From Pseudeuparius sepicola (taxonomy: Eukaryota; Arthropoda; Insecta; Coleoptera; Anthribidae), in assembly GCA_963920635.1 (NCBI GenBank), contig OY987300.1, positions 58,425,415-58,489,414 of the forward strand: 64,000 bases of DNA. The letters run 5' to 3'. The position numbers and the translations under genes were made by a program. Shown here piece by piece: positions 3,556-45,912 of this stretch; within the stretch, counting starts at the first letter, position 1, and every line of letters starts with the position of its first letter. The notes under the pieces were generated by a model. The model searched no databases, was not told where the DNA came from, and worked only from the letters and a program-made list of their open reading frames with translations.

Positions 3556-3986
3556 GTTTTATCAGTAGAGACCGGATAAAAAAGCACAAAAAAAATGAAA
3601 AAAAAAGTACTTAAAAAAGCATAAAATTTACCAAAAAAGCAACAAGTAAGCAAATTAAGTGAAAATAAATGTTTATGTAAACATACGTGAAAAAGGTCAA
3701 ATAAGCACAAAAAGATAAAATCATAAAACCTCAAAAAAAGCGAAAAAACACAAAAACAGCTATCGCAATATACTTAGTTTTAATTTAAATTCTTCTATAG
3801 TCCTGGTCGTAATATTCGTTATCTCGTAATAATAATACTGGGAATCGACCACAATTTTACATAAGTTTATTTTTCAAAACATCTATTGCTAAAATTTTTA
3901 AGAAATACAATATAGTAGTTGCTCACAAACCAACAAATAATACTAAAAAAGTTTTTTCTAATTTAAAACCTAACCGTGACATAGAC

Positions 3987-4226
3987 ATGCAATCTAATTT
4001 AGTATATAAAGTTAATTGTAATGACTGCCCAGCAGTTTATATTGGACAAACTAAACAATATTTGAAAAGTAGAATGTATAGGCACAAGTTAGATATACGT
4101 AATAAAAATATTTTTTCAACTGCTCTTAGCAAACATGCTATTGACAATTGTCATAATTTTGATTTTAATAATGTGAAAATTCTTGATTATGAGAGTGACC
4201 ATACAAAGAGACACTTTTTGAAATGA
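3987..4226 (+). pseudogene. GIY-YIG endonuclease domain of the Penelope-like element
   Basis: 79 codons from the first ATG, but the same frame is open upstream to about 3868. The VYIGQTKQYLKSRMYRHK segment carries the YIG motif and the catalytic-type arginine spacing of the GIY-YIG fold. In an intact element this nuclease nicks target DNA for reverse transcription. A frameshift near 4222 removes the natural C-terminus. No RT is attached, so it cannot act on its own. Confidence 0.8.
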
Positions 4227-4326: not shown

Positions 4327-4730
4327 AAATAATAAAGGATGTTTAGTGGCATATCAGGTAAAGGATATCAATTGAAAAAAATGCACTCCAGCCGGGACTC
4401 GAACCCGGGACTCCTACTGTGGCCGTAGGCACTTAACCAACTAAGCTACCGGAAATACAGGTTCCATCGGATAGGTGTTATTTATTCCAATTGATATATA
4501 GTTAGTAGCGGTGAGATGTATAGGAGACTTCGGCGTCTTCTACAGCTACTGGGAGGGGTTAGAGGGTGTAGGGTAACCATTCATGATTGTTGGTTATGTG
4601 AACTTCCTATTTGTTCATGGTTAAGTGCCTACGGCCACAGTAGGAGTCCCGGGTTCGAGTCCCGGCTGGAGTGCATTTTTTTCAATTGATATCCTTTACC
4701 TGATATGCCACTAAACATCCTTTATTATTT
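4327..4730. repeat. Perfect 113-bp inverted repeat made of a tRNA-derived SINE
   Basis: Arms 4327-4439 and 4618-4730 are exact reverse complements, separated by 178 bp. Read outward, each arm holds a tRNA-like body with a B box (GGTTCGAGTCC) followed by a tail ending near CCACTAAACATCC. The left copy continues into the loop with an A box (TAGCTTAGTTGG). The match extends beyond the SINE tail, so one arm was probably copied from the other (fold-back or template switching). Confidence 0.85.
4337..4470 (-). mobile_element. tRNA-derived SINE, copy 1
   Basis: On the minus strand a cloverleaf can be drawn: D arm GCTT...AAGT, anticodon stem CCTAC/GTAGG with a 7-nt loop GGCCACA, T arm CCGGG/CCCGG with loop TTCGAGT. 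The acceptor stem pairs poorly and position 33 is not T, so this is a retroposon head, not a working tRNA gene. The tail runs GTGCATTTTTTTCAATTG to CACTAAACATCC. Copies: 4618-4720 (+, head lost) and 41101-41225 (minus, diverged). Confidence 0.8.
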
Positions 4731-6647: not shown

Positions 6648-6739
6648 ATTTATGACACATTCAGAGAATAGACCAAAGTAGTAATACAAAGAGAGTTCTA
6701 ACCCACGACCTTGAAAAAAGCGTGCAAAGTGGCTACGTC

Positions 6740-6921
6740 ATACCCGAGGTCACGTGACGTCACCGGATGACCCCAGTTGACCCCTAGATCCTGATAGGTT
6801 AACCTTTGACCTTTGGGCCACGTGTGACCCCCAGTTGACCCCCCCCCACTCCAACGACGGGGCAACCCCCACTCCAACGGCTTGGTGGGGTGAGGTCTAT
6901 ATATTCGTGCGCAAGAGCAGT
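6740..6921 (+). promoter_or_regulatory. Terminal promoter of the giant-TIR element (left copy)
   Basis: Contains overlapping palindromes GTCACGTGAC and GTGACGTCAC (E-box plus CRE type), five TGACC half-sites in about 80 bp, and TAACCTTTGACCT at 6800-6812, which on the other strand is a direct repeat of AGGTCA-like half-sites spaced by one base (HNF4/nuclear-receptor DR1 type). A TATA box TATATAT is at 6898-6904 and a CAGT initiator-like site at 6918-6921, 54 bp before the ORF start. The mirror lies at about 20430-20610. Factor assignments are inference. Confidence 0.6.
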
Positions 6922-6974
6922 TTTCCCGTTATATACACTTACAATTTCCCACAGTCTGATTTGCCGAGTTCAAA

Positions 6975-7283
6975 ATGCAGTCGTTCCTGAATCACCTGAA
7001 CAAGAATTTGATCGTCAAGAAATTCGAAAGCGTTCAAAATATGGACGTGGATGAAAATTTTCAAATCACGAGCGTGGACAAAGTGAACACGCAATACGGA
7101 GAGAAGGTCTACGTAGAGTTCGAAGAATTTAAGACGGTGCTGCCGCAACGATACACGGCCGAGTTTACGCCCCAACGGATCGAAGAAATTAATAGGGATA
7201 TCGGTAACGGAAGGAGGTATTACATGAAGAGTCTTGGACCCGTCGGCCGATCTACAAATATCGAATTTATTGTAGAACCATGA
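6975..7283 (+). CDS. Small TIR-encoded protein, 102 aa, unknown (left copy)
   Basis: The first ATG downstream of the TATA box. The protein has a charged N-terminus (LNKNLIVKKFESVQNMD), then a beta-rich core with TQYGEKVYVEFEEFKTVLP and RYYMKSLGPVGRSTNIEFI. This alternation of short strands and turns suggests a small OB-like or other beta fold, possibly nucleic-acid binding (inference). I do not recognise a named family with certainty. It is duplicated in the right arm (20373 downwards), where the first ~100 residues are kept. Its TGA overlaps the ATG of the next ORF (CCATGA). Confidence 0.7.
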   Translation: MQSFLNHLNKNLIVKKFESVQNMDVDENFQITSVDKVNTQYGEKVYVEFEEFKTVLPQRYTAEFTPQRIEEINRDIGNGRRYYMKSLGPVGRSTNIEFIVEP

Positions 7284-7402
7284 CGAAGCTGGAGTACAGA
7301 AGAAAACTGCAACAATATTTGAAGAATTTAGAAGCATTGAAATATGAACTTATGTTATATGAAATTAAAATGAAGATAAAACATATTGACTTACACAATT
7401 AA
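7280..7402 (+). CDS. 40-aa ORF overlapping the stop of the TIR gene
   Basis: Begins at the ATG inside CCATGA, one base before the TGA of the preceding ORF, and ends TAA at 7400-7402; AATAAA follows at 7408-7413. The peptide is Lys/Leu/Tyr-rich and helical (RKLQQYLKNLEALKYELMLY), compatible with a short coiled coil. The ATGA overlap resembles termination-reinitiation pairs of compact viral genes. It is absent from the right arm. Short length makes the call tentative. Confidence 0.45.
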   Translation: MTKLEYRRKLQQYLKNLEALKYELMLYEIKMKIKHIDLHN

Positions 7403-7407
7403 TTTTT

Positions 7408-7413
7408 AATAAA
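7408..7413 (+). terminator. Poly(A) signal after the left TIR ORFs
   Basis: AATAAA six bases after the 40-aa ORF stop, followed by a T/G-rich stretch (TTTTGTTGTGTTTTT) at 7425-7442, the usual downstream element. Confidence 0.55.
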
Positions 7414-8269
7414 CGTTTAAAAATCTTTTGTTGTGTTTTTTTATAAGAATCTTTGTGTTGAAGGGAAAACACCTGAAGCATCATATTATAATAAAACTCT
7501 CACTCTAAGCAATAATATCACTCTATTCCACTGTTATGTGTATACAGGGTGATTCTTAACTTATACACATAAATTTGGAAAATTGTAGGTTATGTCAAGT
7601 AATGGCTAATAATGAAAAAAAAAGTCTAATAAAATTGTTATCGATAAGGTCTGCGTTTGTGATCTTATGAACCATAATTTTTAATTTATTTGTGCAAATA
7701 AACCCCGAATTGGGGTTGAAAAAGGTAATTGCGCGGCTGTCCCATTTGATACACCCTAGCTGTTTCAGTTCATCTCGTTTGGAAAAATTTTAGGGGTTAT
7801 TACTTTTTTAAATACCGGTTTCCTCAACCTTATTTGAAAGTAAATATTTTTTAGTTCCCCACAGAAGGAAATAATGACGATATTTTATACCGGTGGATTC
7901 AAAAAATATATAAGGTTAGGAAAAAAACCTTGGTAGGCAAACGCGGCTCTGCTGACCAGACAAAAAAAAACCTTAGTCGACAAATAATGGCCTATAAGAA
8001 GGGTGCGTGATTCCACGTATCAGTTCGAGTGCTCCAAGATGCAAGTAAGTATATACCAGCTGTCCCATTTTTAAACAGCTAGATATTTGGAAACCTTTCG
8101 TAAAAAAATTCCCAAGGATTACATGAGCAAAAGAAAGAAAAAAATGTAAATATACCAGCTGTCCCATTTATAAACCGCTTGATATCTTGGAAACGAAAAC
8201 TTATATAAAGGAAGTAAAAGCTATATCTTAATAGGCGGAGGACCGACTGTCATTCAGACAGGTGAAAAT

Positions 8270-8620
8270 TTTTTGTTATTTTTTGTAGAAGTTTTTTGCC
8301 AAAATTTTTTTTGTCAATTTTTTTTTCGTCAAAATTTTTTTTTGTCAAATTTTTTTTTGACAATTTTTTTTGCCAAAATTTTTGTTTGCCAAATTTTTTT
8401 TTGCCAAATTTTTTTTTTGTCAAAATTTTTTTTGTCAAAATTTTTTTTTGCCAAATTTTTTTTTGTCAAAATTTTTTTTGTCAAAATTTTTTTTGTCAAA
8501 ATTTTTTTTTGTAAAATTTTTTTTGACATTTTTTTTGCCAAATTTTTTTTTGTCGAATTTTTTTTTGCCAATTTTTTTGTTTGCCAAATTCTTTTTCGAC
8601 AAAATTTTTTTTGATACAAA
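8270..8620. repeat. T-rich minisatellite, left arm
   Basis: About 18 imperfect units of (T)7-9 followed by GYCAAA or GCCAAA, 17-20 bp each. Mirror copy at 18588-18935. ORFs of FF/KK-rich peptides on both strands are artefacts of the repeat. Confidence 0.9.
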
Positions 8621-8639
8621 TATAATTGCTAACGTTTAA

Positions 8640-10770
8640 TTTGTTTACCCCATTTACGAAAATGATAACAAAATTGGATCAGACAAGATGTTTTTTCGAA
8701 GTATAGTTTTTAAACACAGGGTGCCACCACCGGTTTTACGATATAGGTTTCAAAATGCGACGCAAGTACATAAAAAAAATACCCTAGAGATAAGAAAACA
8801 AAATACAACTCACAGAAAGATTCTTGATGATGTATAAAAAAAAATCAGGTTACATCTAATGCCCCAGACAGTAAAATAAACATCCCCGAGCTATCAGATA
8901 TAACCAAACATCATTTTTCTAACGGCACAGTCATTTTCACGGGAAAAACAACCAGTAACCGTTCAAATTCCATAGATAGGTACTGCCGTAATCCAAAATT
9001 TCACTGAACTACGCGTATCTATTATACTGAAGTAGGTACTGATACACTTCCATCTTTCCAAAGAAAAACAAACACGAAACTCAGACTTTTCATATATTTA
9101 TTACAACGCCTCGATAGAGTCTTTATTTGTGGCCACGACCGAGAATCTACTGAAGCAAGTGCGACGCGTAGGACGTGAAAAGTGCCGAGTTGGTTTTATT
9201 AAACAATGAAACTTATACCTACGTATATATAAAATAAATGAGAAATATGCCAGAGATGTGAAACCTAATTGTGTTGCAAGTTTGAGGGTCCAAAAAAAAT
9301 ATTGGCTTTAATTTTTTAAGGTGAGAAACACATCTAACAGCCAGTTTGGAAATATACAAGGCAAAAAAAGTAGTGATGTGGCTGTCCCATTTTATGTTTT
9401 ATACAGGTTGGGTTATTTTAGAATAGTTGTTCAATAGACCGAGACAACATCATAAACGCTTCCCGTTAGAACAGAATGTGATGAAAAGAAAAATTCCATC
9501 TGGGTCAAGCTACTACATAACCAAAATAAAAAATACTGAACGTTATAAAATTTAAAAAATCATATTTTCTACGGATTTTTATCCTCTGAAAATTGTTCTT
9601 GTGTAAAATTCAGTTTCTCTGGGTCAAGCTAGGTGGTAACTATATAACCAAAATAAAAAATACTGAACGTTATAAAATTTAAAAAATCATATTTTCAAGG
9701 GATTTTTGTCCTCTGAAAATTGGTTTTGTATAAATTGAGTTTCAATAAGTTACTAATTGAGATAATAGGAAAAAAATCTTAAGAATCTCTTATAGAATTC
9801 TGAGACAACGACCCTGAGAGTAAATATCATACAAAAATCTTTGTGCGTTGACTTTCAACTCAATTTAATAATTAGGTTTAATAATGACAATTTTCTCGAT
9901 TATCTAGAATCAAAAATATTGCGAGTGGCAATTTTCTAGATATCATGTGAAGCCTTATTATTGCGTCGTAAGTTAGAGGATCCAAAAATATTGGCTTAAA
10001 TTGTTTAGTAAATGCGATTAAAATATGTTTAGTTTATCAACAGTTAATTGTAACAGCTTATAATCTTAGAAGCTAAACTCTTTAAAAAATTTTTTAGACA
10101 AAAAGTTGTAGTTTAATAATGGTCAGTTGGATTCCTTTTGAATCATGTTTGCATATTACCTACAAGGAGTTACAACCTCAAAACATAGAAATCGCTCATT
10201 TTAAACCGATTTAATAAAAATTTCACCAAAACAATACTTTCACTCATATGATACACTTCTGATTAATAAAAAAGGCACCATAGGTAGTAATAATAAGATA
10301 TTCAACGGAATTTTTATCGACTGTTTGCCCATTTTGCTAGCTTTTGGGGGTATTCCTTGATATTTTAGACTGATAAAAATGAATAATAAAAATTAAAAAT
10401 AAAAATTTCACCAAAACAATACTTTCACTCATATAGTACACTTCTGATTAATAAAAAAGGCACCATAGGTAGTAGTAATAAGTTATTCAACGGAATTTTT
10501 ATCGACTGTTTGCCCATTTTGCTAGCTTTTGGGGGTATTCCTTGATATTTTAGACGGATAAAAATGAATAACTAAAATACAAAACGCACTGTTGACTTTA
10601 CTTACGTGAATAGTAAGCCTATAATACGTATCGAAAACAGAGAAATATTCAGGTCAAGAAAAAAATGGCCTAATTTACAATAAAAAATATAGCAGACAAC
10701 ATAGCGATGACACCGATTGACCCGTTTTGCTGGTAAAAAGTAAACAAAGGTACCTATTGCGATTCTAATC
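8640..10770. other. Left arm interior, no gene; two tandem duplications
   Basis: No coding frame recognised. A ~119-bp unit is duplicated at 9502-9740 (both start GGGTCAAGCTA and contain AATACTGAACGTTATAAAA). A 185-bp unit is duplicated at 10217-10586 (both contain TCACCAAAACAATACTTTC and GCTAGCTTTTGGGGG). Both are mirrored in the right arm (about 17460-17700 and 16630-17000), so they predate formation or homogenisation of the arms. Confidence 0.75.
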
Positions 10771-11072
10771 AGGCATTTCCAACGGAGATGCCTTCAATAC
10801 GCCCACGTGGGAGAGCCGCCGGTGTTTCGTCACATGCAAATCGCCGCTCGAGATGGAAGCATCTCGGCCTTTCGACGCATTGCGCGCCACTTCGTTTGTT
10901 GAAATCTGGCCGCCGCGCCGCCGTCAACTTGCCCGGAGATGCCTCGCTACGTGGTGCGTCGCATACTCGCCGTCGCGTGGTGTATGGGCGCCAGCTTTTG
11001 GCCAATTTCAAGGGAATCGTTTTTCATATTTTCGACGGATTTTCGTCCTTTTTGCAGACGTTACACTGCTAA
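10770..11072. other. GC-rich, CpG-rich island in the arm (mirror 16133-16440)
   Basis: About 300 bp clearly GC-richer than its surroundings, full of CpG, with short hairpins (GAGATGGAAGCATCTC; CCCACGTGGG). ORFs are open on both strands (94 and 80 codons), which is expected of any GC-rich patch; no motif supports either. It may be a captured host fragment, a promoter-like island or a structured RNA. Confidence 0.5.
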
Positions 11073-11780
11073 ATTGATCCGTTTTGCTGGCAAAAAATAT
11101 TTCTATCGCCATGACTGAGTCACGACGCTTGGCCTTATGCGATAAACAATGTGTGTGGGTAGAGACATTCGCGGGAAAAGGTGTAACATAATATGCATGC
11201 TTTCTTCATGCAATGAATTGTAAATAAAATTCATACATCGAACTGTGACTGGTGACTGGATAAAAATGCCGTAATAAGAATCGACTGTTTTCATGAATAA
11301 CCTCATTGAATTTTATGCAGTTTTAGAAAGTTAATGTGGGTTGGAAAATTTGTATTATATGCTGGATGCAGAGAAAAAGTGGAAATTTCATATAAGTTGA
11401 GCTGTTTATGAATGAATAAAAGTTGAGAGAACAATACCTACTTATACAAACACAACAGAACGAGACAGTCTTAAAGAAAATGGGCAATTCACTCTTTGTG
11501 TATAGGACTCGAACAGCGACTTATTATTTTAATCGGTACTGTTGTAAGAAATTCAGAAATGGAATTTTGGTTTATTTAATAAAAATATATACTTACACAT
11601 TTTATCTTTATCTTTTTATGGTGCACTTTAACATATTTTCAGTTTGTAACATGTTTCTGAGGAGAACAAAATCAGGAAATACTTGTCTCTAGGATTATAT
11701 TATTATTACATTTTAGTTTCAACATGTTTTTGCACTTATAAGGGAGGATAGAAAAAAACCAAAAATATACATAAAACATA

Positions 11781-11786
11781 TTTATT
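11781..11786 (-). terminator. Poly(A) signal of the central coiled-coil gene
   Basis: AATAAA on the minus strand (TTTATT on the + strand), about 145 bp after the stop at 11930. Confidence 0.4.
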
Positions 11787-11929
11787 GTGTATAAAAATAT
11801 AAAAGAAAATATACTTAAAAGCTAAGAATACGTATTAAATTTAAAACTAAAAGAAGGATAGGTATCTATAAACAACGTTGGAAAATAAAGACTCAAAAAT
11901 TTTTTAAAAATATTTAATGTGAGAAAAAA

Positions 11930-12672
11930 CTACTTTTTTACCACATTAAATCTTTTTAAAATACCAGCAGACAGCCGTTTATCCCTCTCCATTTTCTCAA
12001 TTTTGGCTATAGATACCTGCTCCCTTTTTCTCAGTCGTTCTTTCTCTCTCCTAATAGTCGCCAGTCGATGTTGCTCCTCTCTCAAGGATTTTAGATTTTC
12101 GGCGTCCTTTTGTTTCAGCCCTTTTGAGACCTGTAATATATAGGAACCGAGTGAAGTACTCCCAGGACTAGTCAGCTCCTCGAATTCATCCTCGCTGTCC
12201 ATCTGCTGACTAACACTAATGTGCACGTCACTAAAGGAGTCCTCGCTGTCCATGCCCAACTGACGCATGTCTTTACCACCATTTCCTTTCAATTGTGGGT
12301 TATTCGTGTTTTCCACACCACACTGCTCGACGTCCTCTTGCCGATGAACCGGTGAAATAATGGAATTCGGACAGAATGCCATTATCTCGTCGTAACAAGG
12401 CACTTGGGAGGGCGACACGAAGGACGCACTATTCAAATCGGGCATGTTGTATGACTGTGCAGAGTCGATGGTTGGCTGAAAAGAAAAAAAATAATAAGTT
12501 TAATTTAGAAAAAAAGTATTTTTCAAAAATAAAGTTTAAAAAATAATTTTGTATGAAAAAAATTGTTGAAGATTACCAGAAAACCAAGATTTATACTTAC
12601 AGGCATTATTAGCATATTGCTAAGGATAGTAGGTTTCTTTGTCGAGAGAGACAACTTCTTAGGGTGCTGCAT
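11930..12672 (-). CDS. Two-exon gene: 205-aa acidic/coiled-coil protein, unknown
   Basis: Exon 1 is 12672-12601 (24 codons from ATG, starting MQHPKKLSLSTKK). The intron 12600-12476 has a GTAAGT donor and a TTTTCAG acceptor, phase 0. Exon 2 is 12475-11930. The middle is acidic and Ser-rich (MDSEDSF, MDSEDEFEEL, a duplicated DSED motif). The C-terminus is a basic heptad-like helix (LREEQHRLATIRREKERLRK...) ending AGILKRFNVVKK. This acid-middle/basic-coil layout suggests a DNA- or chromatin-associated factor (inference); no named family recognised. A minus TATA (CTTATAAGTTTC, about 12731-12742) lies some 60 bp upstream of the ATG. The clean intron and preserved frame argue for a functional gene. 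Confidence 0.75.
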
Positions 12673-12730
12673 TGTAAGTATCCAAAATACACAAAAAACA
12701 CACCACTGGAACTACTATTGTGAATCAAGA

Positions 12731-12742
12731 AACTTATAAGAG
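12731..12742 (-). promoter_or_regulatory. TATA box of the two-exon gene
   Basis: TTATAAG on the minus strand, placing transcription start about 30 bases upstream of the ATG at 12672. Confidence 0.5.
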
Positions 12743-12779
12743 AGGAGGCTGTGAACTGACTAATGGCCATTCAACAAAC

Positions 12780-14400
12780 CTCTTTAAAGGGAAAAAATTC
12801 GATGTCAGTCAAAAAATATAGTAGGAGAAAAACGATTTGCCCACTCTAGAATTTTTAAAAAACTTGTTTATTGATCTGAGCGAGACTGTGTGGCGTTATG
12901 CGTGGTCATTAAATTTAATATGTGGTAAACAAGAGGCCACGGGGATGAACGATATAATGCAATGTAATCCAAAAAAAATTAGCTAGACTGTATGGCGTTA
13001 TACACGTTCTTTAGGGCCGGACTGGGCTGATGGACTAGGGGGAATTAGATTGTTAATACATCGCAGAGTCTTTGCGAAATTGAATGTGATAATGTTTAAA
13101 GAAACAAATCGCGCATGGGTTGTCCAATCATATCGTTGCACAGTTAATTAAAAATGTAGACGCAAAAACATATCTCCCAAAAAAAAAAGTTCAACCTACT
13201 TTCCGCTTAAAAATCGAACAACAGAGGTATCTCCCATCGCTCACAAAACCAATTCCAGAAAGGACAAGAACGCCAAGGCCGGGCGCACTCAAATTTCGTA
13301 TCGGTGTTTTCTTTTAGTCGAAAAATATTTCCAAGGTAAAAGCTGAACTTTTGGGGTGTATGTTGAAAATTTACATTTTGGGGTACGAATGAGGTTGATC
13401 GCGGCGTCTCGGCTAGAAGGTCAAAATGGGTCAAAATGGGCCTAAGGTTTTGAAATTTTTTTTTTACACCTACCTAATTCTTCATCTTGAACAAGTTTCA
13501 TTAACAACATTTTAACGTGTAAGCTACAGAAAAGGCACTCTTCTAAAATAGTATAATATTTTTAATTAAAAGATACCTCTGTAAGGATATTAGGCAGACT
13601 TTTAGGCTATGTGTTCTCTAGAAAAATTGTTAGAGTGCTTGCTTTAGGTAGCGAAAATCGCAGGGGTAGAAAGTCACGGTGGAGTCATTGATAAACGGTT
13701 CCACTTATCGAAATTTGGAAGGAAGTCACTGTGGTAATCATCGTTAAAATCTTCTATTACCTACGCTGCTATAATTAAATATTTATCTACGGCTTGGTTC
13801 TGTTTCTTTTCCAATGCCTAAATAGTACATTTTATAATATTAATTTTGTTTCCTCTCCAATATATTGTACGGTGTTTGTATCACATATATCTGTGAAAAA
13901 CAACGTTTCAGATATTTCTCAGTTTTTAAGAGCGGTGTTTGGTCAGAAACGATCTAGTGGATGATGGGGTAGTAAAAAGGCCGCCGTTTTTCCAGAGCCT
14001 GTTTTGAATACACCCCACCAAGTCTTGACTTGTCATTATGATAGGTATTGCATACTTTTGTATAGGAGTCAGCTTTTGTTAACCCAACTTCTTTCTGTTA
14101 TCTTCTTCCACCATTTTAATCTCAATTCATCTACCCGACGCCACAATATGTTACTAATCGTGAATAAATAGCACATTTCATAGTGAAGTTTATAAACCAG
14201 TGGGATTTGGCAATTTTGTTTAAATATAATGAAAAATAGCTCGTTTTGGTCTTGATTATTGTTAGACAAATTATCGCAAACTTCACTTTTCAGAAGAATG
14301 ATTTTATTGTGATGTAATGATTGTACAAAGACGCCAGCGCAAACACGATCACGATAATTAACTGCTAACCTTAAACAAAACAGCTGACGATTTTATGCGA
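12780..14400. other. Central unique region, no gene recognised
   Basis: Contains two related segments (GACTGTGTGGCGTTATGC near 12890 and GACTGTATGGCGTTATAC near 12987), a duplicated GGTCAAAATGG near 13419-13440, and a relic (about 13480-13560) similar to the inner half of the fold-back elements at 33.1 and 61.3 kb. Short ORFs here have no recognisable motifs. Confidence 0.5.
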
Positions 14401-14409
14401 TTTTTATTA

Positions 14410-14610
14410 TGACTTAGCTTGTTGTTCCCCTGTTCCGCGCTGACTTAGCCTATTCTTCCCGTGTATGGGTATTTTAAAGTAATACGTATATTGTGACCTA
14501 GCCTGTTTTTCCCCTGACTATTACGTTGGTTTGAAAGAGCACACAATTTACCACAAGATGGCACTGTAATCCCAATTTCAACAAAAAATGACTTGGCCTG
14601 TTTTTCCCGT
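14410..14610 (+). repeat. Four copies of a TGAC-TAGCCTG-TTTTTCCC motif
   Basis: Degenerate 20-24-bp motif at 14410, 14441, 14493 and 14589: TGACYTRGCYTG, then T-rich, then CCCSTG. Spacing is irregular (31, 52, 96 bp), so it is not a simple tandem repeat. Repeated protein-binding sites are one explanation. Confidence 0.65.
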
Positions 14611-14639
14611 GTACCCTTCATATGGTTTTGTTTCTCTCA

Positions 14640-15376
14640 AGATTGGGTTTCAACCCCAGTGGCGAAAGAAGTAAGGCCCCAACTTGCATTATCTAGTTTT
14701 TACTCTAATCTTTTCTAGTCTATATTGTTTAGGATTTGTATGAAAAAATGAATTTTGTATCATCAAGTTTGCGACTCTCCCTGCAGCTCGAAACGGTTGT
14801 TTGTGATTCCATACTTTCATAATATAAGCTTATAAGGTAATATCCCATATTTTTAAATTACACTATTCTTTGTATCTCTCTAATATGTTTGATCAAACAT
14901 GGATTAGACCTCCTGCGCCCTGCATTCTACCTCAAAGGTGGTGGGAAAATGAATGCATATAGTTTTGTTACAATTTAAAAATATATATAAAAGAACAATT
15001 CAACCTATTTATAACTAATATCCATATGAAACTGTACGTCTAATTTGCGATTAAAAATTTTTGTTGAAGGTGTGAAACATTTTCGATTTTTTTTTATTGC
15101 GTTCTGTATTCTACCTCGAAGTAGGAAACGAACGCATGATGATTGTCAGTTAAATGCGACGTGGTTCTTCAATTTCTCGGCCACGCTCGTCGGCCAAATT
15201 TTTTATCGAGACTTGCACAGCAAAACGCCGGGCGCCACGGAGCGCCGCTGCGTCTAGGGTTCCGATGCAAAATATCTCAGCCGCGCTCGTACCTGGATCG
15301 TGGGAGCACAGATGTTTGATGACACCCGGATTTCAGAGGCGTACATCAGGGTGTAGTCTAATTTCTTGCTGAATCA
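14640..15376. other. Stretch before the GNAT gene, GC-rich towards its end
   Basis: AT-rich to about 15150, then a CpG-rich patch (15155-15310) with CTCGTCGGCC and GCCGGGCGCC segments. Overlapping + ORFs (15045-15257, 15154-15372) show no motif. No gene called. Confidence 0.4.
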
Positions 15377-15895
15377 TCAATGTTGGAGGATTTCGGCAAT
15401 AATGGACCCGATTTTGAGGTGCTTTGTGAAAAAAAAAAGAAGAAAAATTGACACAAACATTTTATTAGGGGATCTATACATGGTGTTATAATTTATTTCT
15501 CCGTAATTAATACATGAACAGTTTTCAAAAAGTTTTTCTGAATTGGTATTAGAACAGAAAGACGTAAATTGATTAATTTTCTTAATATGATTCACTAGTC
15601 TTGACGCATATCCTCTTCGACGATATTCTTCATGGGTAAAAACAAAATTGAGATTTTTCGGGTTGGAGTGTTTGTTTAAAGGGTCGAAATCAATTTTTGA
15701 CATTAGGACAAATAAAACCGGTTTAGCATCAACGTATAATATATAGCACGATATTTTTTTATCTAGGCACCACTGATCGAACATACTTCTTGCAATACCA
15801 TCTCTCACGACTTCTTGTCTTATTTTGTTTACTGCTTGTCGATCAAAAAAAGAATCTGATCTCCATGTTGCACAGACGTTTGAATGAAAAATCAT
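15377..15895 (-). CDS. GNAT-type N-acetyltransferase-like protein, 172 aa
   Basis: Uninterrupted minus frame from ATG 15895. Residues about 1-75 form the N-terminal half (FDQWCLDKKISCYILYVDAK, PVLFVLM strands). Residues ~82-105 hold LNFVFTHEEYRRRGYASRL, the acetyl-CoA-binding motif A of GNATs (R/Q-x-x-G-x-A, here RRRGYA). Then comes NTNSEKLFENCSCINYGEI, resembling the C-terminal 'N...A..LYEKCGF' strand-helix. Length fits a single-domain GNAT. The hydrophobic tail (SIFLLFFF) is atypical. Substrate unknown. It is the only recognisable enzyme in the giant-TIR element and is cargo rather than a replication gene. Confidence 0.75.
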   Translation of the reverse strand: MIFHSNVCATWRSDSFFDRQAVNKIRQEVVRDGIARSMFDQWCLDKKISCYILYVDAKPVLFVLMSKIDFDPLNKHSNPKNLNFVFTHEEYRRRGYASRLVNHIKKINQFTSFCSNTNSEKLFENCSCINYGEINYNTMYRSPNKMFVSIFLLFFFTKHLKIGSIIAEILQH

Positions 15896-15902
15896 CGGTC
15901 AC

Positions 15903-15980
15903 ACACTTTTAAGACATTACCCCCACCACTTTTATATTTTTCCATACACTTTTTAAGACGTTACCCCCACCACTTTTATA
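15903..15980 (-). promoter_or_regulatory. Tandemly duplicated TATA promoter of the GNAT gene
   Basis: A ~43-bp unit occurs twice (15903-15936 and 15946-15980), each containing, on the minus strand, TATAAAAGTGGTGGGGGTAA. The nearer TATA (15936) is 41 bp from the ATG, leaving a leader of about 10 nt. Confidence 0.65.
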
Positions 15981-18900
15981 AATTTTAAACTAGCCGAAAC
16001 CTTGACCCATTTGAGATGTTAAGATATTTGGGGAAGCGTTTGGAAGTTGCGCCAGCAGCGAATTGCATAAGGTCAAGCGTCGTGACTCAGTCATGGCGAT
16101 AGAAATATTTTTTGCCAGCAAAACGGATCAATTTAGCAGTGTAACGTCTGCAAAAAGGACGAAAATCCGTCGAAAATATGAAAAACGATTCCCTTGAAAT
16201 TGGCCAAAAGCTGGCGCCCATACACCACGCGACGGCGAGTATGCGACGCACCACGTAGCGAGGCATCTCCGGGCAAGTTGACGGCGGCGCGGCGGCCAGA
16301 TTTCAACAAACGAAGTGGCGCGCAATGCGTCGAAAGGCCGAGATGCTTCCATCTCGAGCGGCGATTTGCATGTGACGAAACACCGGCGGCTCTCCCACGT
16401 GGGCGTATTGAAGGCATCTCCGTTGGAAATGCCTGATTAGAATCGCAATAGGTACCTTTGTTTACTTTTTACCAGCAAAACGGGTCAATCGGTGTCATCG
16501 CTATGTTGTCTGCTATATTTTTTATTGTAAATTAGGCCATTTTTTTCTTGACCTGAATATTTCTCTGTTTTCGATACGTATTATAGGCTTACTATTCACG
16601 TAAGTAAAGTCAACAGTGCGTTTTGTATTTTAGTTATTCATTTTTATCCGTCTAAAGTATCAAGGAATACCCCCAAAAGCTAGCAAAATGGGCAAACAGT
16701 CGATAAAAATTCCGTTGAATAACTTATTACTACTACCTATGGTGCCTTTTTTATTAATCAGAAGTGTACTATATGAGTGAAAGTATTGTTTTGGTGAAAT
16801 TTTTATTTTTAATTTTTATTATTCATTTTTATCAGTCTAAAATATCAAGGAATACCCCCAAAAGCTAGCAAAATGGGCAAACAGTCGATAAAAATTCCGT
16901 TGAATATCTTATTATTACTACCTATGGTGCCTTTTTTATTAATCAGAAGTGTATCATATGAGTGAAAGTATTGTTTTGGTGAAATTTTTATTAAATCGGT
17001 TTAAAATGAGCGATTTCTATGTTTTGAGGTTGTAACTCCTTGTAGGTAATATGCAAACATGATTCAAAAGGAATCCAACTGACCATTATTAAACTACAAC
17101 TTTTTGTCTAAAAAATTTTTTAAAGAGTTTAGCTTCTAAGATTATAAGCTGTTACAATTAACTGTTGATAAACTAAACATATTTTAATCGCATTTACTAA
17201 ACAATTTAAGCCAATATTTTTGGATCCTCTAACTTACGACGCAATAATAAGGCTTCACATGATATCTAGAAAATTGCCACTCGCAATATTTTTGATTCTA
17301 GATAATCGAGAAAATTGTCATTATTAAACCTAATTATTAAATTGAGTTGAAAGTCAACGCACAAAGATTTTTGTATGATATTTACTCTCAGGGTCGTTGT
17401 CTCAGAATTCTATAAGAGATTCTTAAGATTTTTTTCCTATTATCTCAATTAGTAACTTATTGAAACTCAATTTATACAAAACCAATTTTCAGAGGACAAA
17501 AATCCCTTGAAAATATGATTTTTTAAATTTTATAACGTTCAGTATTTTTTATTTTGGTTATATAGTTACCACCTAGCTTGACCCAGAGAAACTGAATTTT
17601 ACACAAGAACAATTTTCAGAGGATAAAAATCCGTAGAAAATATGATTTTTTAAATTTTATAACGTTCAGTATTTTTTATTTTGGTTATGTAGTAGCTTGA
17701 CCAAGATGGAATTTTTCTTTTCATCACATTCTGTTCTAACGGGAAGCGTTTATGATGTTGTCTCGGTCTATTGAACAACTATTCTAAAATAACCCAACCT
17801 GTATAAAACATAAAATGGGACAGCCACATCACTACTTTTTTTGCCTTGTATATTTCCAAACTGGCTGTTAGATGTGTTTCTCACCTTAAAAAATTAAAGC
17901 CAATATTTTTTTTGGACCCTCAAACTTGCAACACAATTAGGTTTCACATCTCTGGCATATTTCTCATTTATTTTATATATACGTAGGTATAAGTTTCATT
18001 GTTTAATAAAACCAACTCGGCACTTTTCACGTCCTACGCGTCGCACTTGCTTCAGTAGATTCTCGGTCGTGGCCACAAATAAAGACTCTATCGAGGCGTT
18101 GTAATAAATATATGAAAAGTCTGAGTTTCGTGTTTGTTTTTCTTTGGAAAGATGGAAGTGTATCAGTACCTACTTCAGTATAATAGATACGCGTAGTTCA
18201 GTGAAATTTTGGATTACGGCAGTACCTATCTATGGAATTTGAACGGTTACTGGTTGTTTTTCCCGTGAAAATGACTGTGCCGTTAGAAAAATGATGTTTG
18301 GTTATATCTGATAGCTCGGGGATGTTTATTTTACTGTCTGGGGCATTAGATGTAACCTGATTTCTTTTTATACATCATCAAGAATCTTTCGGTGAGTTGT
18401 ATTTTGTTTTCTTATCTCTAGGGTATTTTTTTTATGTACTTGCGTCGCATTTTGAAACCTATATCGTAAAACCGGTGGTGGCACCCTGTGTTTAAAAACT
18501 ATACTTCGAAAAAACATCTTGTCTGATCCAATTTTGTTATCATTTTCGTAAATGGGGTAAACAAATTAAACGTTAGCAATTATATTTGTATCAAAAAAAA
18601 TTTTGTCGAAAAAGAATTTGGCAAAAAAAAAAATTGTCAAAAAAAAATTCGACAAAAAAAAAATTTGGCAAAAAAAATGTCAAAAAAAATTTTACAAAAA
18701 AAAATTTTGACAAAAAAAATTTTGACAAAAAAAATTTTGACAAAAAAAAATTTGGCAAAAAAAAATTTTGACAAAAAAAATTTTGACAAAAAAAAAATTT
18801 GGCAAAAAAAAATTTGGCAAACAAAAATTTTGGCAAAAAAAATTGTCAAAAAAAAATTTGACAAAAAAAAATTTTGACGAAAAAAAAATTGACAAAAAAA

Positions 18901-19797
18901 ATTTTGGCAAAAAACTTTTACAAAAAATAACAAAAAATTTTCACCTGTCTGAATGACAGTCGGTCCTCCGCCTATTAAGATATAGCTTTTACTTCCTTTA
19001 TATAAGTTTTCGTTTCCAAGATATCAAGCGGTTTATAAATGGGACAGCTGGTATATTTACATTTTTTTCTTTCTTTTGCTCATGTAATCCTTGGGAATTT
19101 TTTTACGAAAGGTTTCCAAATATCTAGCTGTTTAAAAATGGGACAGCTGGTATATACTTACTTGCATCTTGGAGCACTCGAACTGATACGTGGAATCACG
19201 CACCCTTCTTATAGGCCATTATTTGTCGACTAAGGTTTTTTTTTGTCTGGTCAGCAGAGCCGCGTTTGCCTACCAAGGTTTTTTTCCTAACCTTATATAT
19301 TTTTTGAATCCACCGGTATAAAATATCGTCATTATTTCCTTCTGTGGGGAACTAAAAAATATTTACTTTCAAATAAGGTTGAGGAAACCGGTATTTAAAA
19401 AAGTAATAACCCCTAAAATTTTTCCAAACGAGATGAACTGAAACAGCTAGGGTGTATAAAATGGGACAGCCGCGCAATTACCTTTTTCGGTCTTGTGTAT
19501 ATTTTACTGGAATAAATAATTATTTCCAATTTTTTTTGGTACAACCTCTACATCGTATTTTTTTTACTGAAATTTTTTCATCATGTTTTTCCAAGTGAAA
19601 CTGACGTTATTTTTACCTTTACATATATTTTTACCGGTATACAAAACTTATTCGAAAATTCTACCTACATTTTCACGTCTTGGATTTTTTTTACAGATTT
19701 TGTTCAAACAAAATTTCCTATATTATCTGGGGCCTTCCGACTAACTATTATAATAACTGTTTTTATCAGTCACTCGAAAAAATTCTATCTGCACTTG

Positions 19798-19806
19798 TAT
19801 ATAAAA
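19798..19806 (+). promoter_or_regulatory. TATA box without a gene
   Basis: TATATAAAA, 42 bp upstream of the ATG of a 16-residue stub; see the right-arm-specific block. Confidence 0.45.
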
Positions 19807-19875
19807 CATTCGTCTGAGTCTTGTCTTGTACATTTCACCGTCAAAAAATGAAAATTTCCCAAAATGTTATCGGGA

Positions 19876-20373
19876 TTATAGGATCAGGACCTTTTTAAAA
19901 TTACATTTTTTGAATAAAAAATTTTCAAATTTTTTCGATTTTTCATAGGTATCAAAAGTGCGGAACTGCGCATGCGCGAAACGCGTGCAAGGGGGAAGGG
20001 TGGATTTTGTTCGGGCAACTACATGCCAGTCGGACGGAGGCCTTCGGCCTCCGTTCCTCCTGGCACGTAGTTCTACAATAAATTCGATATTTGTAGATCG
20101 GCCGACGGGTCCAAGACTCTTCATGTAATACCTCCTTCCGTTACCGATATCCCTATTAATTTCTTCGATCCGTTGGGGCGTAAACTCGGCCGTGTATCGT
20201 TGCGGCAGCACCGTCTTAAATTCTTCGAACTCTACGTAGACCTTCTCTCCGTATTGCGTGTTCACTTTGTCCACGCTCGTGATTTGAAAATTTTCATCCA
20301 CGTCCATATTTTGAACGCTTTCGAATTTCTTGACGATCAAATTCTTGTTCAGGTGATTCAGGAACGACTGCAT
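19876..20373 (-). CDS. Right copy of the TIR gene with a different 3' end, 165 aa
   Basis: Residues 1-101 equal the left-arm protein, then the frame runs into the right-specific block and gains about 64 residues rich in Arg (LRARRNGGRRPPSDW...). The extension is read through a hairpin (20018-20071) and looks accidental: no homologous domain, biased composition. The promoter is the mirrored terminal one (TATA near 20447). The left version with the 40-aa partner is probably the original arrangement. Confidence 0.6.
   Translation of the reverse strand: MQSFLNHLNKNLIVKKFESVQNMDVDENFQITSVDKVNTQYGEKVYVEFEEFKTVLPQRYTAEFTPQRIEEINRDIGNGRRYYMKSLGPVGRSTNIEFIVELRARRNGGRRPPSDWHVVARTKSTLPPCTRFAHAQFRTFDTYEKSKKFENFLFKKCNFKKVLIL
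20018..20071. repeat. 54-nt long hairpin at the arm divergence point
   Basis: ACTACATGCCAG (20018-20029) pairs with CTGGCACGTAGT (20060-20071), and inside it ACGGAGGCC-TTC-GGCCTCCGT forms a perfect 9-bp stem with a 3-nt loop. It sits exactly where left and right arms stop matching. Confidence 0.8.
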
Positions 20374-20679
20374 TTTGAACTCGGCAAATCAGACTGTGGG
20401 AAATTGTAAGTGTATATAACGGGAAAACTGCTCTTGCGCACGAATATATAGACCTCACCCCACCAAGCCGTTGGAGTGGGGGTTGCCCCGTCGTTGGAGT
20501 GGGGGGGGGGGTCAACTGGGGGTCACACGTGGCCCAAAGGTCAAAGGTTAACCTATCAGGACCTAGGGGTCAACTGGGGTCATCCGGTGACGTCACGTGA
20601 CCTCGGGTATGACGTAGCCACTTTGCACGCTTTTTTCAAGGTCGTGGGTTAGAACTCTCTTTGTATTACTACTGACCAA

Positions 20680-21409: not shown

Positions 21410-21413
21410 CATG

Positions 21414-21609
21414 AATTACCTCACCACTTTCTAAGAAGCTTGCAAGAAAAACGCTGAATGGCTCAGCACCCCGGCAAGCTACACCGAGTTTATAAATTCT
21501 CTTTGTATCCATTTTTGTGCCAGTCAGATACTGCTCTCGTGATGTAAAACATATTTTTGTACTAATAAAAATTTTTAAAAAACGGTTCCTTGCATTCTGA
21601 ACGATTTTT
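21414..21609 (+). repeat. 5' LTR
   Basis: AATTACCTCACC...GAACGATTTTT. TATAAA at 21491-21496; AATAAA at 21564-21569. Differs from the 3' LTR at three positions (T/G in ACATATTTTTG, C/T in GGTTCC, A/G in TTGCATT). Confidence 0.95.
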
Positions 21610-21620
21610 GGCGCAGTCGG
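21609..21620 (+). other. Primer-binding site (tRNA-Ser type)
   Basis: TGGCGCAGTCGG directly after the 5' LTR; its complement CGACTGCGCCA equals the acceptor 3' end of tRNA-Ser. Identification of the tRNA rests on general knowledge. Confidence 0.75.
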
Positions 21621-21932
21621 TAGGACGTCCGGGTTACCCTCTTGCGCATCGCGACGCGTTCGAAATAATTTTCGTATCTACGATTAACCGGATATCGAAC
21701 AGTTGTCACGTTGTGTCGAACTTTAATTCGGTGTGGACTCACAAAAATCGGGGTTCCCGTCTATCGCAGACCTGAATTGGAGGCTTGGCATCAGCTGGCA
21801 TCGGAATTTGGAACAGCATCGTCCAAATTCGCGGGGGCACGTCACCGGAGAAGACAAGCATCGCTGATCTGGTTCGCCACCCTATAGTTGTTTAAGGAGT
21901 GAAGAATGCATTGGGCCGTTCTAGTAATGTAA

Positions 21933-23249
21933 GTGCAATTCATGTCAATTGACGATTTAACAAGTGAATTCGAAAGATTGATTTTAAATATACCTTCATC
22001 TGACTCTCAGTCCTTAGAATCACACCCTTACTTATCCTTAAGTGAAAGTATTAATCAAACCGAAAATATGGCAGAATTTAAATCTGAATATTTAACTTGT
22101 GTACCGAGATTTGACGGTGATCCGAACGAATTGAATAGATTTTTAGTTACTTGCGAATCGATAATCAATACTTTTTATGATTTAAAAAATCCAAATTCTT
22201 TCCAAAATGTTTATTTGTTGAACTGTCTCGTTTCCAAATTGTCTTGAAATGCAAAATTAGTAATAAATATTCAAAATATATCTACATGGACAGAACTAAA
22301 AGAAGCTTTATATCGAAATTTTGCCGATCAAAGAGATGAAACCTGCTTAAACCGAGATTTAGTAATGCTAAGACAATTATTACCTAATGAAAAACCTCAA
22401 AATTTTTATGACAAAGTTTTACATATTTTGAACCTTTTATGTAGTTATGTAGATATTCACGAGCAAACAGCAGACGCAAAAGCACTAAAACGAAATTTGT
22501 ACAATAGCCTAGCATTAAAAACTTTCCTTGCTGGACTTAAAGAACCTTTAGGTACCACTATTCGTTGTATGAAACCTACCACTTTAGTTGAAGCATTGCA
22601 TTTTGTTACAGAAGAAGATAATATCCACTATTTCCAAAATTTTTCCCATAGAAACCAACCCCAAGTTCCTAGACCAAATATACAAACACAAATGAGACCT
22701 AACTTTAACGCTCATACGCAAAACAATCAATTTAGGGCGCCACAAACCTTCCCTTCTCGACCATTACCAATTCAACCCCGTCCTGTTAATCAACAAAGAT
22801 ACTTTACAAATTCCCAAGTTTTCAAATATCCCCAGCAAAATCAAAATCGAAATGTTTTTAGACCCAATAATTCCTATGTATCGAATATGACAAGACCAAC
22901 GCCAATGAGTGTTTCAGTCCCAATTAATAATGCAAATCAACCCTCTACTATGAACAGACAACCCTCTACTATGAACAGGCAACCTCAACAACAACGACTA
23001 AATTATACCCCTAATCAATATAACAGTTATTTTACACAAAACCCATCTACGTCAATAAACTTTATTTCTAAAGAATTGTTTAACACTGAAATAGACGAAT
23101 TAAATCCAATTTGTACTGAATCTACCCAACATGACGAAAATTTTGAAAATAATTCTCAAAATTACGAAGAACTAGAATATTTTGACCACCACCCTGATCA
23201 ATCAGACGAAAAATTTATGAATTTGCGTCGAGACAACGACCAAACATAA
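21933..23249 (+). pseudogene. gag: gag, interrupted by one in-frame TGA
   Basis: A single 439-codon frame interrupted by TGA at 22245-22247; the frame is otherwise open on both sides. The N-terminal half has the helical capsid-type sequence found in errantivirus Gag (CVPRFDGDPNELNRFL; LKEALYRNFADQRDE). The C-terminal third is Asn/Gln/Pro-rich with an 8-residue repeat (PSTMNRQ twice) and no zinc knuckle, as usual for this group. One base change could have made the stop, so it is a recent lesion. Confidence 0.85.
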
Positions 23250-26200
23250 AATACACTATTATTTCTTTTAATTTTACCGATACTGGACGTTTATATTATG
23301 TCGTATTTCCGAAATTTAACGCAAAAATATTAATTGATTCAGGCTCAACCAAATCTTTTATAAATCCAGAAGTAGCTCAAAAATTCTTTCCAAATTTAAT
23401 TCGAGATGACTCTTTTATTGTTTCTTCGGTTTATCAAAAATCTGCTCACAGTTATAGCGCAACAATACCGGCTCCAGAAATTTTCAAAATGCCAAATAAT
23501 ACATACATGAAATTTTATCTATTTAAATTCCACGATTTTTTCGACGGTTTAATAGGAATGGACCACATAAAATTTTTAAAGTCACATCTCGACTATGAAA
23601 ATGATTTCTTTATTACACCCTGTACTAAATTAAAACTTAATCCATATACAACAAAAAATGAATTAAATCTTATTCACGTAGAACCCAGATCAAAAAAGGT
23701 TATTAAAATAAATACGTCAATTCAAAATGGAGAAATAATAATACCGTACCAAAAAATTCAAAATTGCGAAATTCCCGAGTGCTTAACCATAGCGAAAAAT
23801 GGAAAAGCTTTGACGACAATCTTAAATAACACAGAAAACAAAGTATCTTTAAACTTTTCAGAACCACTAGAAGTTGACGAATTTTACAGAAACGAGTTAC
23901 AAAACTTTGAACTGCATAACTTTGACGAAACAGATACAACTCCTCTGGACCTGACAAAAATTCGCGTAGACCACCTTAACACAGAAGAAAAGAGTAAAAT
24001 TTTAAAGTTATGTAAAGAATATTCTGATATTTTCTATAATGAAGACACTCCCTTGACATTTACTAATAAAGTAAAGCACAAAATTCGCACCACTGACGAA
24101 ACGCCAATTTATTCCAAATCATACCGTTACCCATTTATTCACCGGCAAGAAGTCGAATCCCAAATCAAAAAAATGCTTAATCAAAACATAATCCGCCCTA
24201 GTGTTTCCCCTTGGTCGTCACCAATTTGGGTCGTCCCTAAAAAAGCTGACGCGTCGGGTAAACAAAAATGGCGTGTAGTTGTGGACTACCGGAAATTAAA
24301 TGACAATACTATCGATGACAAATACCCATTACCTAATATACACGACTTACTTGACAAGTTAGGAAAGTGTCAATACTTTTCTACACTGGACCTTGCTAGC
24401 GGTTTTCACCAGATAGAAATGGACGAAAACTTCATAGAAAAGACAGCTTTTAACACTGAACAAGAACACTATGAGTACCTTCGTATGCCCTTCGGCTTAA
24501 AAATATGCGCCCGCGAGTTTTCAGAGATTAATGGACAACATCCTCCGTGGTATTCAAAACGAAAAATGCCTTGTCTACTTAGACGATATAATAATTTTTT
24601 CTACTTCTCTTCAAGAACACTTAGAAAGCCTTAAATCCGTTTTCCAAAGACTTCGCGAAACAAATTTTAAAGTACAACTGGATAAGTCCGAGTTTCTAAA
24701 GAAAGAAGTTGCATACCTTGGTCACATAGTCACCCCTGACGGCGTTAAACCCAACCCTGACAAGATTAAAGCCATCAAAGAATTTCCAATACCCAAAACT
24801 ACCAAACAAATCAAAGGTTTTCTCGGATTAGTTGGCTATTATAGACGCTTTATTCCTTCATTTGCAAAAATTACTAAGCCTTTCACAAAATGTCTAAAGA
24901 AAAATGCTAAAATAGTACATGATGATGAATTTATTTCTTGCTTCGAAACTTGCAAAAATTTGCTTACAAATTCTCCAATTCTGCAATATCCTGATTTTTC
25001 TAAATCTTTTAATTTGACAATAGAAGCGAGCAATGTTGCGATTGGTGCTGTCCTTTCACAAGGGCCTATCGGTAACGATTTACCTGTGGCTTACGCCTCA
25101 CGCACATTGAACGATTCTGAACAAAATTACTCAGTTATCGAAAAAGAATTATTAGCAATAATTTGGGCCACCAAGTACTTTAGACCCTATCTGTATGGAC
25201 GTAAATTCAACATTATAACCGATCATAAACCACTTCAGTGGCTTTTTTCATTGAAAGATCCGAATTCGAAATTATTGCGCTGGCGTATCCGATTAGAAGA
25301 ATTTGATTACAATATTATTTACAAGAAAGGGAAACTTAACACCAACGCAGATGCGCTTTCAAGAATTGAAATACACACCAAAACCGTTACTGACGAAATA
25401 GACGAAATTGCAGAGAACGTTTTACGTGATATATTCCCATATAACATGAGTAACGATAACTCCGTTCCTAGAACCCTTAATAATGACGCAACCCAAGATA
25501 CCGACAATGTTTCACTACTTGTAATACCAGATAATGAAACCCAAGACCTTAGCGATAACGAAGACGACGATGACCGCCTCGAAACCGACAACAATACTGT
25601 ACACTCGAATGCCGAACAAAATCCAGTCATCAATATTCCCATTTCCGAAAATCCCGTAAACTACGGACAAAATCAAATCATAATTTCTGTTGTACACCAC
25701 TCACCCGCACAACCCAAAATTACTATTTTATTTGAGAAAAAGAAAAGAATAAATGTTCAATTTTCCGAAAATAATTGTAATCAAGATGTATTACGATTTG
25801 CCAAAGATTACGTTTTACCGAACTCACAATATCACCTTTATTTCGAAAATGCTGACATTTACCAAAGATTCACTAATGTTTTACAAGAAAATTTTAAATG
25901 GCCTTCAATCAATTTTCGAAAATGTAATAAAAAATTAATAGACGTTACTAACAAAAATGATATCGAGGACATAATAAAAAATTACCACGAAGGAAAGTCT
26001 AATCATCGCGGCATAGACGAAACCGTTGAACGAGTAAAGAATAAATATTATTGGCCTTACATAAAAAATTCTGTACAAACCTTTATAAACGATTGTGAAA
26101 TCTGCCAACAAAGCAAATACGAGAGAAATCCAATAAGAATCAAAATGAACGTCACCCCTACAGCAAGCAAACCTTTCGAAATAGTTCATCTAGATACTTT

Positions 26201-26867
26201 TTCATTCGAAAAATCAAAATTTTTGACGATTGTAGATAGTTTTTCGAAATACGCACAAGTCTATCATTTAAATTCATTAGCAGGAACCGAAATAGTTGAT
26301 AATTTAATTCAGTTTTTCTCCCATCACGGTATCCCTAAACAAATAATTTGTGACAACGGAACCGAATTTAAGAATTCAGTTGTTTTAGAGCTATTAAAAC
26401 TCCATAAAATAAATATACACTTTTGTTCACCTAATCACCCTCAATCTAACGGAATTATAGAAAGATTCCATTCCACTCTTATAGAACACATTCGCTTATT
26501 AAATACAAAAGGTTTCCAAAAAACTCCAATAAAAATGAAAATAATTTATGCAATTTTGGCATACAACCACAGTATCCACTCTACAACAAAATTAAAACCA
26601 ATAGATGTTATTAATGGTCACATTAGCGAAGATAATCCATTTAATCAAGAAATTGATCAAATTTTATTAAATGATTATATTAACGATCATAAAGAACGCT
26701 CAAAAGTTCTCTATTCCAAAATAAATTCCAATTTAATTCGAAATAAAGAAAGACTTATAGACAAAATTAATCAAAATCGTGATAACCCAGAATTATTCCA
26801 ACCTCAAGAAAAGGTTTATACTAAAAAACATATTAGGCAAAAGAAAAAATACATATGGACAATTTAA
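23210..26867 (+). pseudogene. pol: pol: protease, RT, RNase H, integrase; one frameshift
   Basis: The frame is -1 relative to gag and overlaps it. Protease: [11 protein letters not shown] (DSG triad). [19 protein letters not shown], and YLDD (in the second segment). The frame breaks between MPFGLK (about 24500) and MDNILRG (24531). RNase H follows with TIEASN where the family usually has Asp, and TDHKPLQW. Integrase has a zinc domain (H..H, CEIC), the DDE core residues in VHLDTF, CDNGTEF and IIERFHS, and a C-terminal basic tail. The rest of the frame is long and intact, so the break is young. Confidence 0.92.
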
Positions 26868-26916
26868 AGCGACCCTTAAGGCAAACTTACGATTTTAACA
26901 ATTAAACTTACTTTCA

Positions 26917-28604: not shown

Positions 28605-28779
28605 GAAGCTTGCAAGAAAAACGCTGAATGGCTCAGCACCCCGGCAAGCTACACCGAGTTTATAAATTCTCTTTGTATCCATTTTTGTGCCAGTCAGATA
28701 CTGCTCTCGTGATGTAAAACATATGTTTGTACTAATAAAAATTTTTAAAAAACGGTTCTTTGCGTTCTGAACGATTTTT
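28584..28779 (+). repeat. 3' LTR
   Basis: Same 196 bp as the 5' LTR. The env frame runs about 20 bp into it, ending TAA at 28602-28604. Confidence 0.95.
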
Positions 28780-41705: not shown

Positions 41706-42716
41706 TCAACTAAGTAATTTAATGAATATTCAGAAAACTCAACATGTTTTATACAAATTTAACACCCTCTGTATTTCGTACAGGGCCTCCAAATAAAAAA
41801 GGTTATAAAACAAACTGGCAATATATTTCGATATTTTGCAGATCCTAGGAGTCTGTTCACTTAAAACTAATCCACCCAGTATACTTGGGCTTAAAATTTT
41901 CAGAAATTGTACCTTTTTAAAACGTGGTTAAATTTATTTTGAACTTGCACTTCCATTCCGTTTGCTGAATACTAAGGTACCTAGTTTATTCACTCAACAG
42001 TCAATACAAAAGCACCAACGCATGTCTGTCGGCACTGAACAGTTGGAACGTACGTACTTATTTACCTCATTTGTCTATTTTAAGACATTTCAAATATTAA
42101 TAAGACAAGACGTGCCAAGGAAACAGAAGAGCGGTGAATTACAAGGAAATGTCATTAGTTATTAATGGTGAATTAGACAAGTTGACATTTTGATTCCAGA
42201 CAGACTTGATGAGTGTCCTGGTTTCTATCCAACTAGACGTTTTCCATATTAATGAGTCGTACATTTTTGGGTGTCAAAATGTCCCATTTTAAGAGATCAA
42301 ATCAACCATTTTCAGGAAAATAATTTTTGCATAAGGTGAAAGTTTCGGATCCTCCAATCCAAGTACCCAAGTACAGTAATTGCAATTATTAGCCTTAATA
42401 AGGCTGTAGTGTTTCGGGGAAAATGCTACCAGTTCTATCGAATCATATAGGTAAAAGTTTATTAGGTTACATTACGTCGGCGATTCAACTATAGCCCAAT
42501 GAAGCAAATTACCTGGTGTCTCATTTTGACGAAAACTGCTAAATATATTATAGCTCCCTACAAAAATGTTTAACGAGCAAAGAAAAATTCTGAAATTTGG
42601 TATGTAATATAATACCTGCAAGAAGAAATCATGAAAAAGCACACAAAAAAAATTGGGTATCTTTAACTAATTGACCCCTCATTTGAGATGCCTATGATGA
42701 AGAATGTCAGACTATA
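41706..42716. other. Intergenic, no gene recognised
   Basis: The only sizeable ORF (41962-42165) has no motif. Confidence 0.45.
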
Positions 42717-42718
42717 TA

Positions 42719-43966: not shown

Positions 43967-43969
43967 TAT

Positions 43970-45545: not shown

Positions 45546-45912
45546 ATACCTATTTCTTCACAAATCAAAAAGCTTGTCGCGCGAATTGCAAAGAATATAA
45601 ATACTTTGGTAAGTAGGTACTTGCTTATCAACCAATCACTGTCCAATAAAATAAATTGGTACCTACTTTCATGAACATTTCGCTTGACAAGCTTTTTATT
45701 TATTCGTTTTAGTACATGGCTTAAATAAAGCTTGTTTTTAAAAATTATATTTTATCTTTTATTTTATTTTGCTAGATGTTGATGTAAGAACATTATAGTA
45801 GGCAATGCGACAATGGAATACTTTAATTTTTGGCATTATCTGTCTGTGATATTCAATATTGCTTTCATAGCCATAATTAAATCTTGTATTACGGCTGGGT
45901 TAAGTGATTGTA

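Follow-up and report, generated by a model that had tools for sequence, protein, structure and literature searches.

Polintons have been described as self-replicating elements (PMC6431247), and the intact vertebrate Mavericks reported in PMC8097293 measure 12.7-24.6 kb, have terminal inverted repeats (TIRs) that range from 46 to 1,447 bp and average 402 bp, and are flanked by 6-bp duplications, a length given for Polintons in PMC10045372 as well. The commonest Maverick end motif is (AGT)2//(ACT)2, and a repeated end motif is presented as a requirement for protein-primed 'jumping-back' (PMC8097293). Drosophila-associated adintoviruses, as listed in PMC8363768, are of 14,567 bp (complete) and of 13,277 and 13,883 bp (near-complete). 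The same source describes the bidnavirus-related Vesanto virus, with maybe up to twelve segments; many of these resemble one another in their terminal inverted repeats, and PolB-like genes are restricted to some of them. An earlier proposal that Tlr elements are a non-autonomous derivative is contested in PMC4028283, and a phrase search of one paper collection for non-autonomous Polintons or Mavericks returned no account beyond a general resource paper.

The element considered here lies within a 64,000-nucleotide stretch of DNA from the beetle Pseudeuparius sepicola (the window), where it occupies positions 6677-20673 (13,997 bp), opening with AGTAGT at 6677 and closing with ACTACT at 20673. 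A perfect 6-bp duplication, GACCAA, abuts both ends (6671-6676 and 20674-20679), precisely where the inverted homology stops. Since the positions of the six end bases and the six duplicated bases are set independently by the point at which the repeat stops, a chance match of all 12 would be expected about once in 10^7 (4^-12, at equal base frequencies). A first-pass annotation had claimed these hexamers and this duplication, as well as their Polinton type; the former are confirmed in the sequence at the limits of the inverted homology, and the latter is well supported, because the hexamers and the 6-bp duplication are as in the Mavericks of PMC8097293, with 6 bp also given in PMC10045372. The end motifs set out in the former source are (AGT)2//(ACT)2 or (AG)3//(CT)3, and the element has the first of these; GACCAA on either side supplies the expected 6 bp, and the outer repeat of 602/604 bp, at 99.5% identity, falls within the published 46-1,447 bp.

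Duplications of 6 bp also occur in the IS3EU and GingerRoot groups (PMC10045372), and the element contains no transposase that we could find to decide the matter. The termini given for those groups in PMC10045372 are TA..TA, occasionally TG..CA, whereas the element has AG..CT despite its 6-bp duplication, in the form of the commonest Maverick motif (PMC8097293). We therefore regard membership of such a superfamily as very unlikely. The duplications of Ginger1 and Ginger2 are of 4 or 5 bp (PMC2836005; PMC10045372).

Self-comparison resolves the inverted homology into two distinct repeat pairs, an outer and an inner one, rather than one continuous arm. The outer pair comprises a left copy of 602 bp that starts with AGTAGT (6677-7278, + strand; GC 47.7%) and a right copy of 604 bp that ends with ACTACT (20070-20673, - strand; GC 48.0%), which over 604 columns are 99.5% identical, one substitution and one 2-bp indel apart. 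The inner pair, at 7718-11143 (+, 3.43 kb) and 16062-19488 (-), is 99.68% identical over 3,427 columns, the longer BLAST alignment showing ten mismatches and a single gap. Between the two pairs, each arm has a block that the other arm lacks: 439 bp on the left (7279-7717) and 581 bp on the right (19489-20069). The outer repeats also stand apart in composition, as the unique blocks, the inner repeats and the whole spacer have a GC content of 27-37% and the measured flanks one of 31-34%.

Terminal repeats of 4.5 kb, the most unusual property ascribed to the element by the first-pass annotation, must accordingly be given up: the non-matching blocks break the repeats and make each 4.5-kb arm a composite, the TIR proper is 602 bp, a length covered by the published values, and the long inverted repeat lies inside the element as a feature in its own right. 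Near-identity over kilobases between 6677-11140 and 16065-20673 holds as inverted homology and fails as continuity. Similarly, the estimate that two thirds of the element is arm applies if the non-matching blocks are counted (65%), while the repeated sequence proper makes up about 58%. The structure is most simply explained by a TIR of 602 bp next to unique sequence of an ordinary kind, together with a 3.4-kb inverted duplication; the arms may instead have measured 4.5 kb originally, with a block in one of them replaced later. The inner pair was also considered as a nested transposon with a duplication of its own and was rejected, as the bases flanking 7718 and 19488 differ when compared by eye.

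The left inner repeat contains tandem repeats of 185 bp, about 127 bp and 15 bp, and its scanned open reading frames (ORFs) include no Pfam-recognised gene. The motif CTGTCCCATTT is found four times in each inner repeat (7737, 8060, 8159 and 9382, with mirror sites at 17813, 19037, 19136 and 19459), and the window contains no further occurrence. The right outer repeat, but not the left, has at its inner edge a stretch of 56 bases (20017-20072, -) that is predicted to form a strong DNA hairpin (-24.2 kcal/mol, z -8.17); the core pattern of the hairpin has a single match in the window when up to two mismatches are allowed, and no exact match in viral contigs.

Inverted sequences that are almost identical over kilobases are prone to assembly errors, and the authors of PMC8363768 are cautious about viral inverted terminal repeats in their own assemblies. 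The inner repeat could thus be a fold-back or a haplotype mis-join, the true element having the 602-bp TIRs and a mis-assembled interior. A simple fold-back join should, however, yield identical and continuous arms, and the arms carry scattered substitutions and small indels, the non-homologous blocks are unequal in length, and the sequence differs at both inner edges. An artefact of this kind seems to us decidedly improbable.

Several other features share the window. Three shorter fold-back inverted repeats (42714-43971, 498 columns at 86%; 45909-47418, 480 columns at 93%; 53648-54564, 336 columns at 96%) all lack AGTAGT ends. A Gypsy/errantivirus-like retroelement at 21413-28779 encodes a reverse transcriptase, an integrase and a Baculo_F-type envelope between 197-bp direct repeats (21413-21609 and 28583-28779; 98.5%). 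At 3813-4226 (+) there is a GIY-YIG fragment (PF01541, E 1.6e-4, 22.4 bits, just below the cut-off of 22.6), which we assume may derive from a Penelope-like element, and a tRNA-Trp (cca) gene lies at 4383-4455 (-). The exon at 50829-51821 (+), with a YPWM motif and no Pfam family, is one that we take to be Deformed-like Hox, which would point to an insect; from this exon the element is some 30 kb distant in the 5' direction.

At the left end of the element, a TATA-like box (6898-6905, +), whose function is presumed from its sequence, precedes ORF1 (6975-7283, +; 102 aa), the first codon position of which is purine-rich (0.68). The ATG of a 40-aa ORF found in the left arm only (7280-7402, +) overlaps the ORF1 stop as ATGA, and an AATAAA follows at 7408. 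The right copy of ORF1 (19876-20373, -) is missing the stop of the left copy. Hence the small gene that had been reported as present twice does begin in both arms but has its own stop on the left only, and the right frame crosses the repeat boundary to reach 165 aa. By length alone ORF1 is not significant, as Markov models of the repeat attained 102 aa in 48 cases out of 500, and the opposite strand has an overlapping ORF of 132 aa. No relative was found in the protein collection or in viral contigs. With OB-fold and PC4/PUR-like proteins considered, its product might possibly be a single-stranded-DNA binder.

The spacer holds two further genes. One is a predicted two-exon coiled-coil gene of 205 aa (11930-12672, -; exons 12672-12601 and 12475-11930) with a GT-AG intron of 125 bp (12600-12476). 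Exon 2 attained no Pfam family cut-off (best E 0.035 and 0.03 in two scans) and has no relative in viral contigs, and the full protein has none in the protein collection. The other encodes a GNAT acetyltransferase of 172 aa (15377-15895, -) that matches PF00583 at an E-value of about 8.6e-06, with 26.5 bits against a cut-off of 20.7; two TATAAAAG boxes lie upstream, and the protein has no relative in the protein collection or viral contigs. ORFs of at least 171 aa arose in 0 of 200 Markov-model sequences of the spacer. By family match (for the GNAT), Markov-model ORF lengths and TATA-like boxes, the cargo frames look like genes, and the earlier description of a spliced coiled-coil gene and a GNAT is borne out by the predicted exons and the PF00583 match. 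Because these searches found no relative for ORF1, the GNAT or the coiled-coil protein, nothing in the interior ties the element to Polintons.

The element is overlapped by 110 stop-to-stop ORFs with a minimum length of 50 aa, and 68 were scanned against Pfam. The 42 left out comprised 27 from the right inner arm (16087-19351), seven low-complexity tandem-repeat frames and one tandem duplicate from the left inner arm, and seven that lie in the right outer repeat or straddle its boundary. Families of PolB, integrase, ATPase, protease and capsid had no match at E <= 0.1 in these 68 of 110 ORFs, all of them uninterrupted frames of at least 50 aa, and the same families were absent at E <= 1 from 14 ORFs in two Pfam scans (4 and 10 ORFs). 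The GNAT gave the sole match above a family cut-off among the 68, and the best match other than to an acetyltransferase was to a DUF (E 0.0081). The reported absence of the usual Polinton genes is therefore supported at the level of the 68 scanned ORFs, none of which is a recognisable core gene; likewise, the profile search proposed for PolB, integrase and capsid in the interior matched none of the three in that set.

With no replication, integration or capsid gene recognised, the element looks like a passenger that other Polintons must copy and move. With much of the interior devoid of a recognised gene, it could also be a dead product. In another reading, an autonomous Polinton was rearranged in place after insertion, its core genes being deleted and replaced and a segment inversely duplicated. 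Degradation is common, at 96% of the vertebrate Maverick loci in PMC8097293; the left end retains an apparently complete transcription unit (TATA, ORF1, the overlapping 40-aa ORF and AATAAA); and the 439- and 581-bp blocks look like the sequence that would normally adjoin a 602-bp TIR on the left and on the right. Yet the 68 scanned ORFs hold no detectable remnant of the lost genes while the duplication is perfect and the TIRs are 99.5% identical, which would call for large events in a short time. We consider this history unlikely.

Our preferred reading, held with a little more than even confidence and from one copy, is that this is a recently inserted non-autonomous (helper-dependent) element of Polinton/Maverick type. 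The low divergence in both repeats and the perfect duplication suggest a young insertion, although repeat identity also fits recent homogenisation. In this scheme, a related autonomous Polinton or adintovirus would supply a protein-primed PolB, starting at the repeated AGT ends, and the helper's integrase would act in trans to insert the linear product, thereby creating the 6-bp duplication. For its own part, the element would contribute the terminal origins and promoters, the small left-end gene, perhaps a single-stranded-DNA-binding replication helper, and the GNAT and coiled-coil genes. The 3.4-kb inner repeat would be a secondary inverted duplication, perhaps only a filler that holds the length at 14.0 kb, an idea prompted by the similarity of that length to those of the Drosophila-associated adintoviruses (PMC8363768) and by Maverick sizes that look constrained (PMC8097293). 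A stronger version casts the element as a gutless satellite of an insect adintovirus or Polinton, which has shed all replication, integration and capsid genes and uses the 3.4-kb duplication as packaging-length filler; besides a small set of accessory genes, it would have kept its replication and packaging ends and a helper gene for single-stranded-DNA binding. We put this forward as a speculative and decidedly unlikely proposal; its logic would be akin to that of helper-dependent adenovirus vectors or of segments in a virus with a split genome.

Should additional copies reveal that the helper-dependent element is mobilised as a whole, this would mean that Polintons can be replicated and integrated in trans, a point that would bear on the origin of satellites and segmented viruses from Polintons. 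The 602-bp ends provide a ready probe for the helper.

Among known systems, Teratorn, a herpesvirus-piggyBac fusion (PMC6431247), differs in having 18-bp TIRs, its own transposase, herpesvirus genes and a size of 41-182 kb. Vesanto virus resembles the element in that inverted terminal repeats enclose accessory-type genes and that only some molecules carry PolB-like genes (PMC8363768), and its layout is a possible precedent for viewing the element as an integrated piece of a Polinton-derived virus with a segmented genome, in which sister segments with the same termini would carry the PolB and capsid genes. The virus-like ends, adintovirus-like size and accessory-like genes suit such a segment, but no sister segment was seen, much of the element has no recognised gene, and Vesanto segments are of 3.3-5.8 kb (PMC8363768), whereas the element spans 14 kb and is inserted in a genome, flanked by a 6-bp duplication; we judge this origin extremely unlikely. 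Drosophila-associated adintoviruses 1-3 share with the element an insect association and a length of 13.3-14.6 kb (PMC8363768). About ten to twelve proteins are predicted for these three, and adintovirus 1 is listed with PolB, integrase, capsid, protease and FtsK (PMC8363768), none of which was found in the element. From Polintons and Mavericks in general it is set apart by the lack of any PolB, integrase, ATPase, protease or capsid gene that we could find, by its 3.4-kb internal inverted repeat and by the amount of DNA without recognised genes, and from the intact vertebrate Mavericks, reported as intronless (PMC8097293), by one predicted spliced gene. With those same vertebrate Mavericks it nevertheless has in common the (AGT)2//(ACT)2 ends, the 6-bp duplication, and a 602-bp TIR and a 14.0-kb length that both lie within the range described in PMC8097293.
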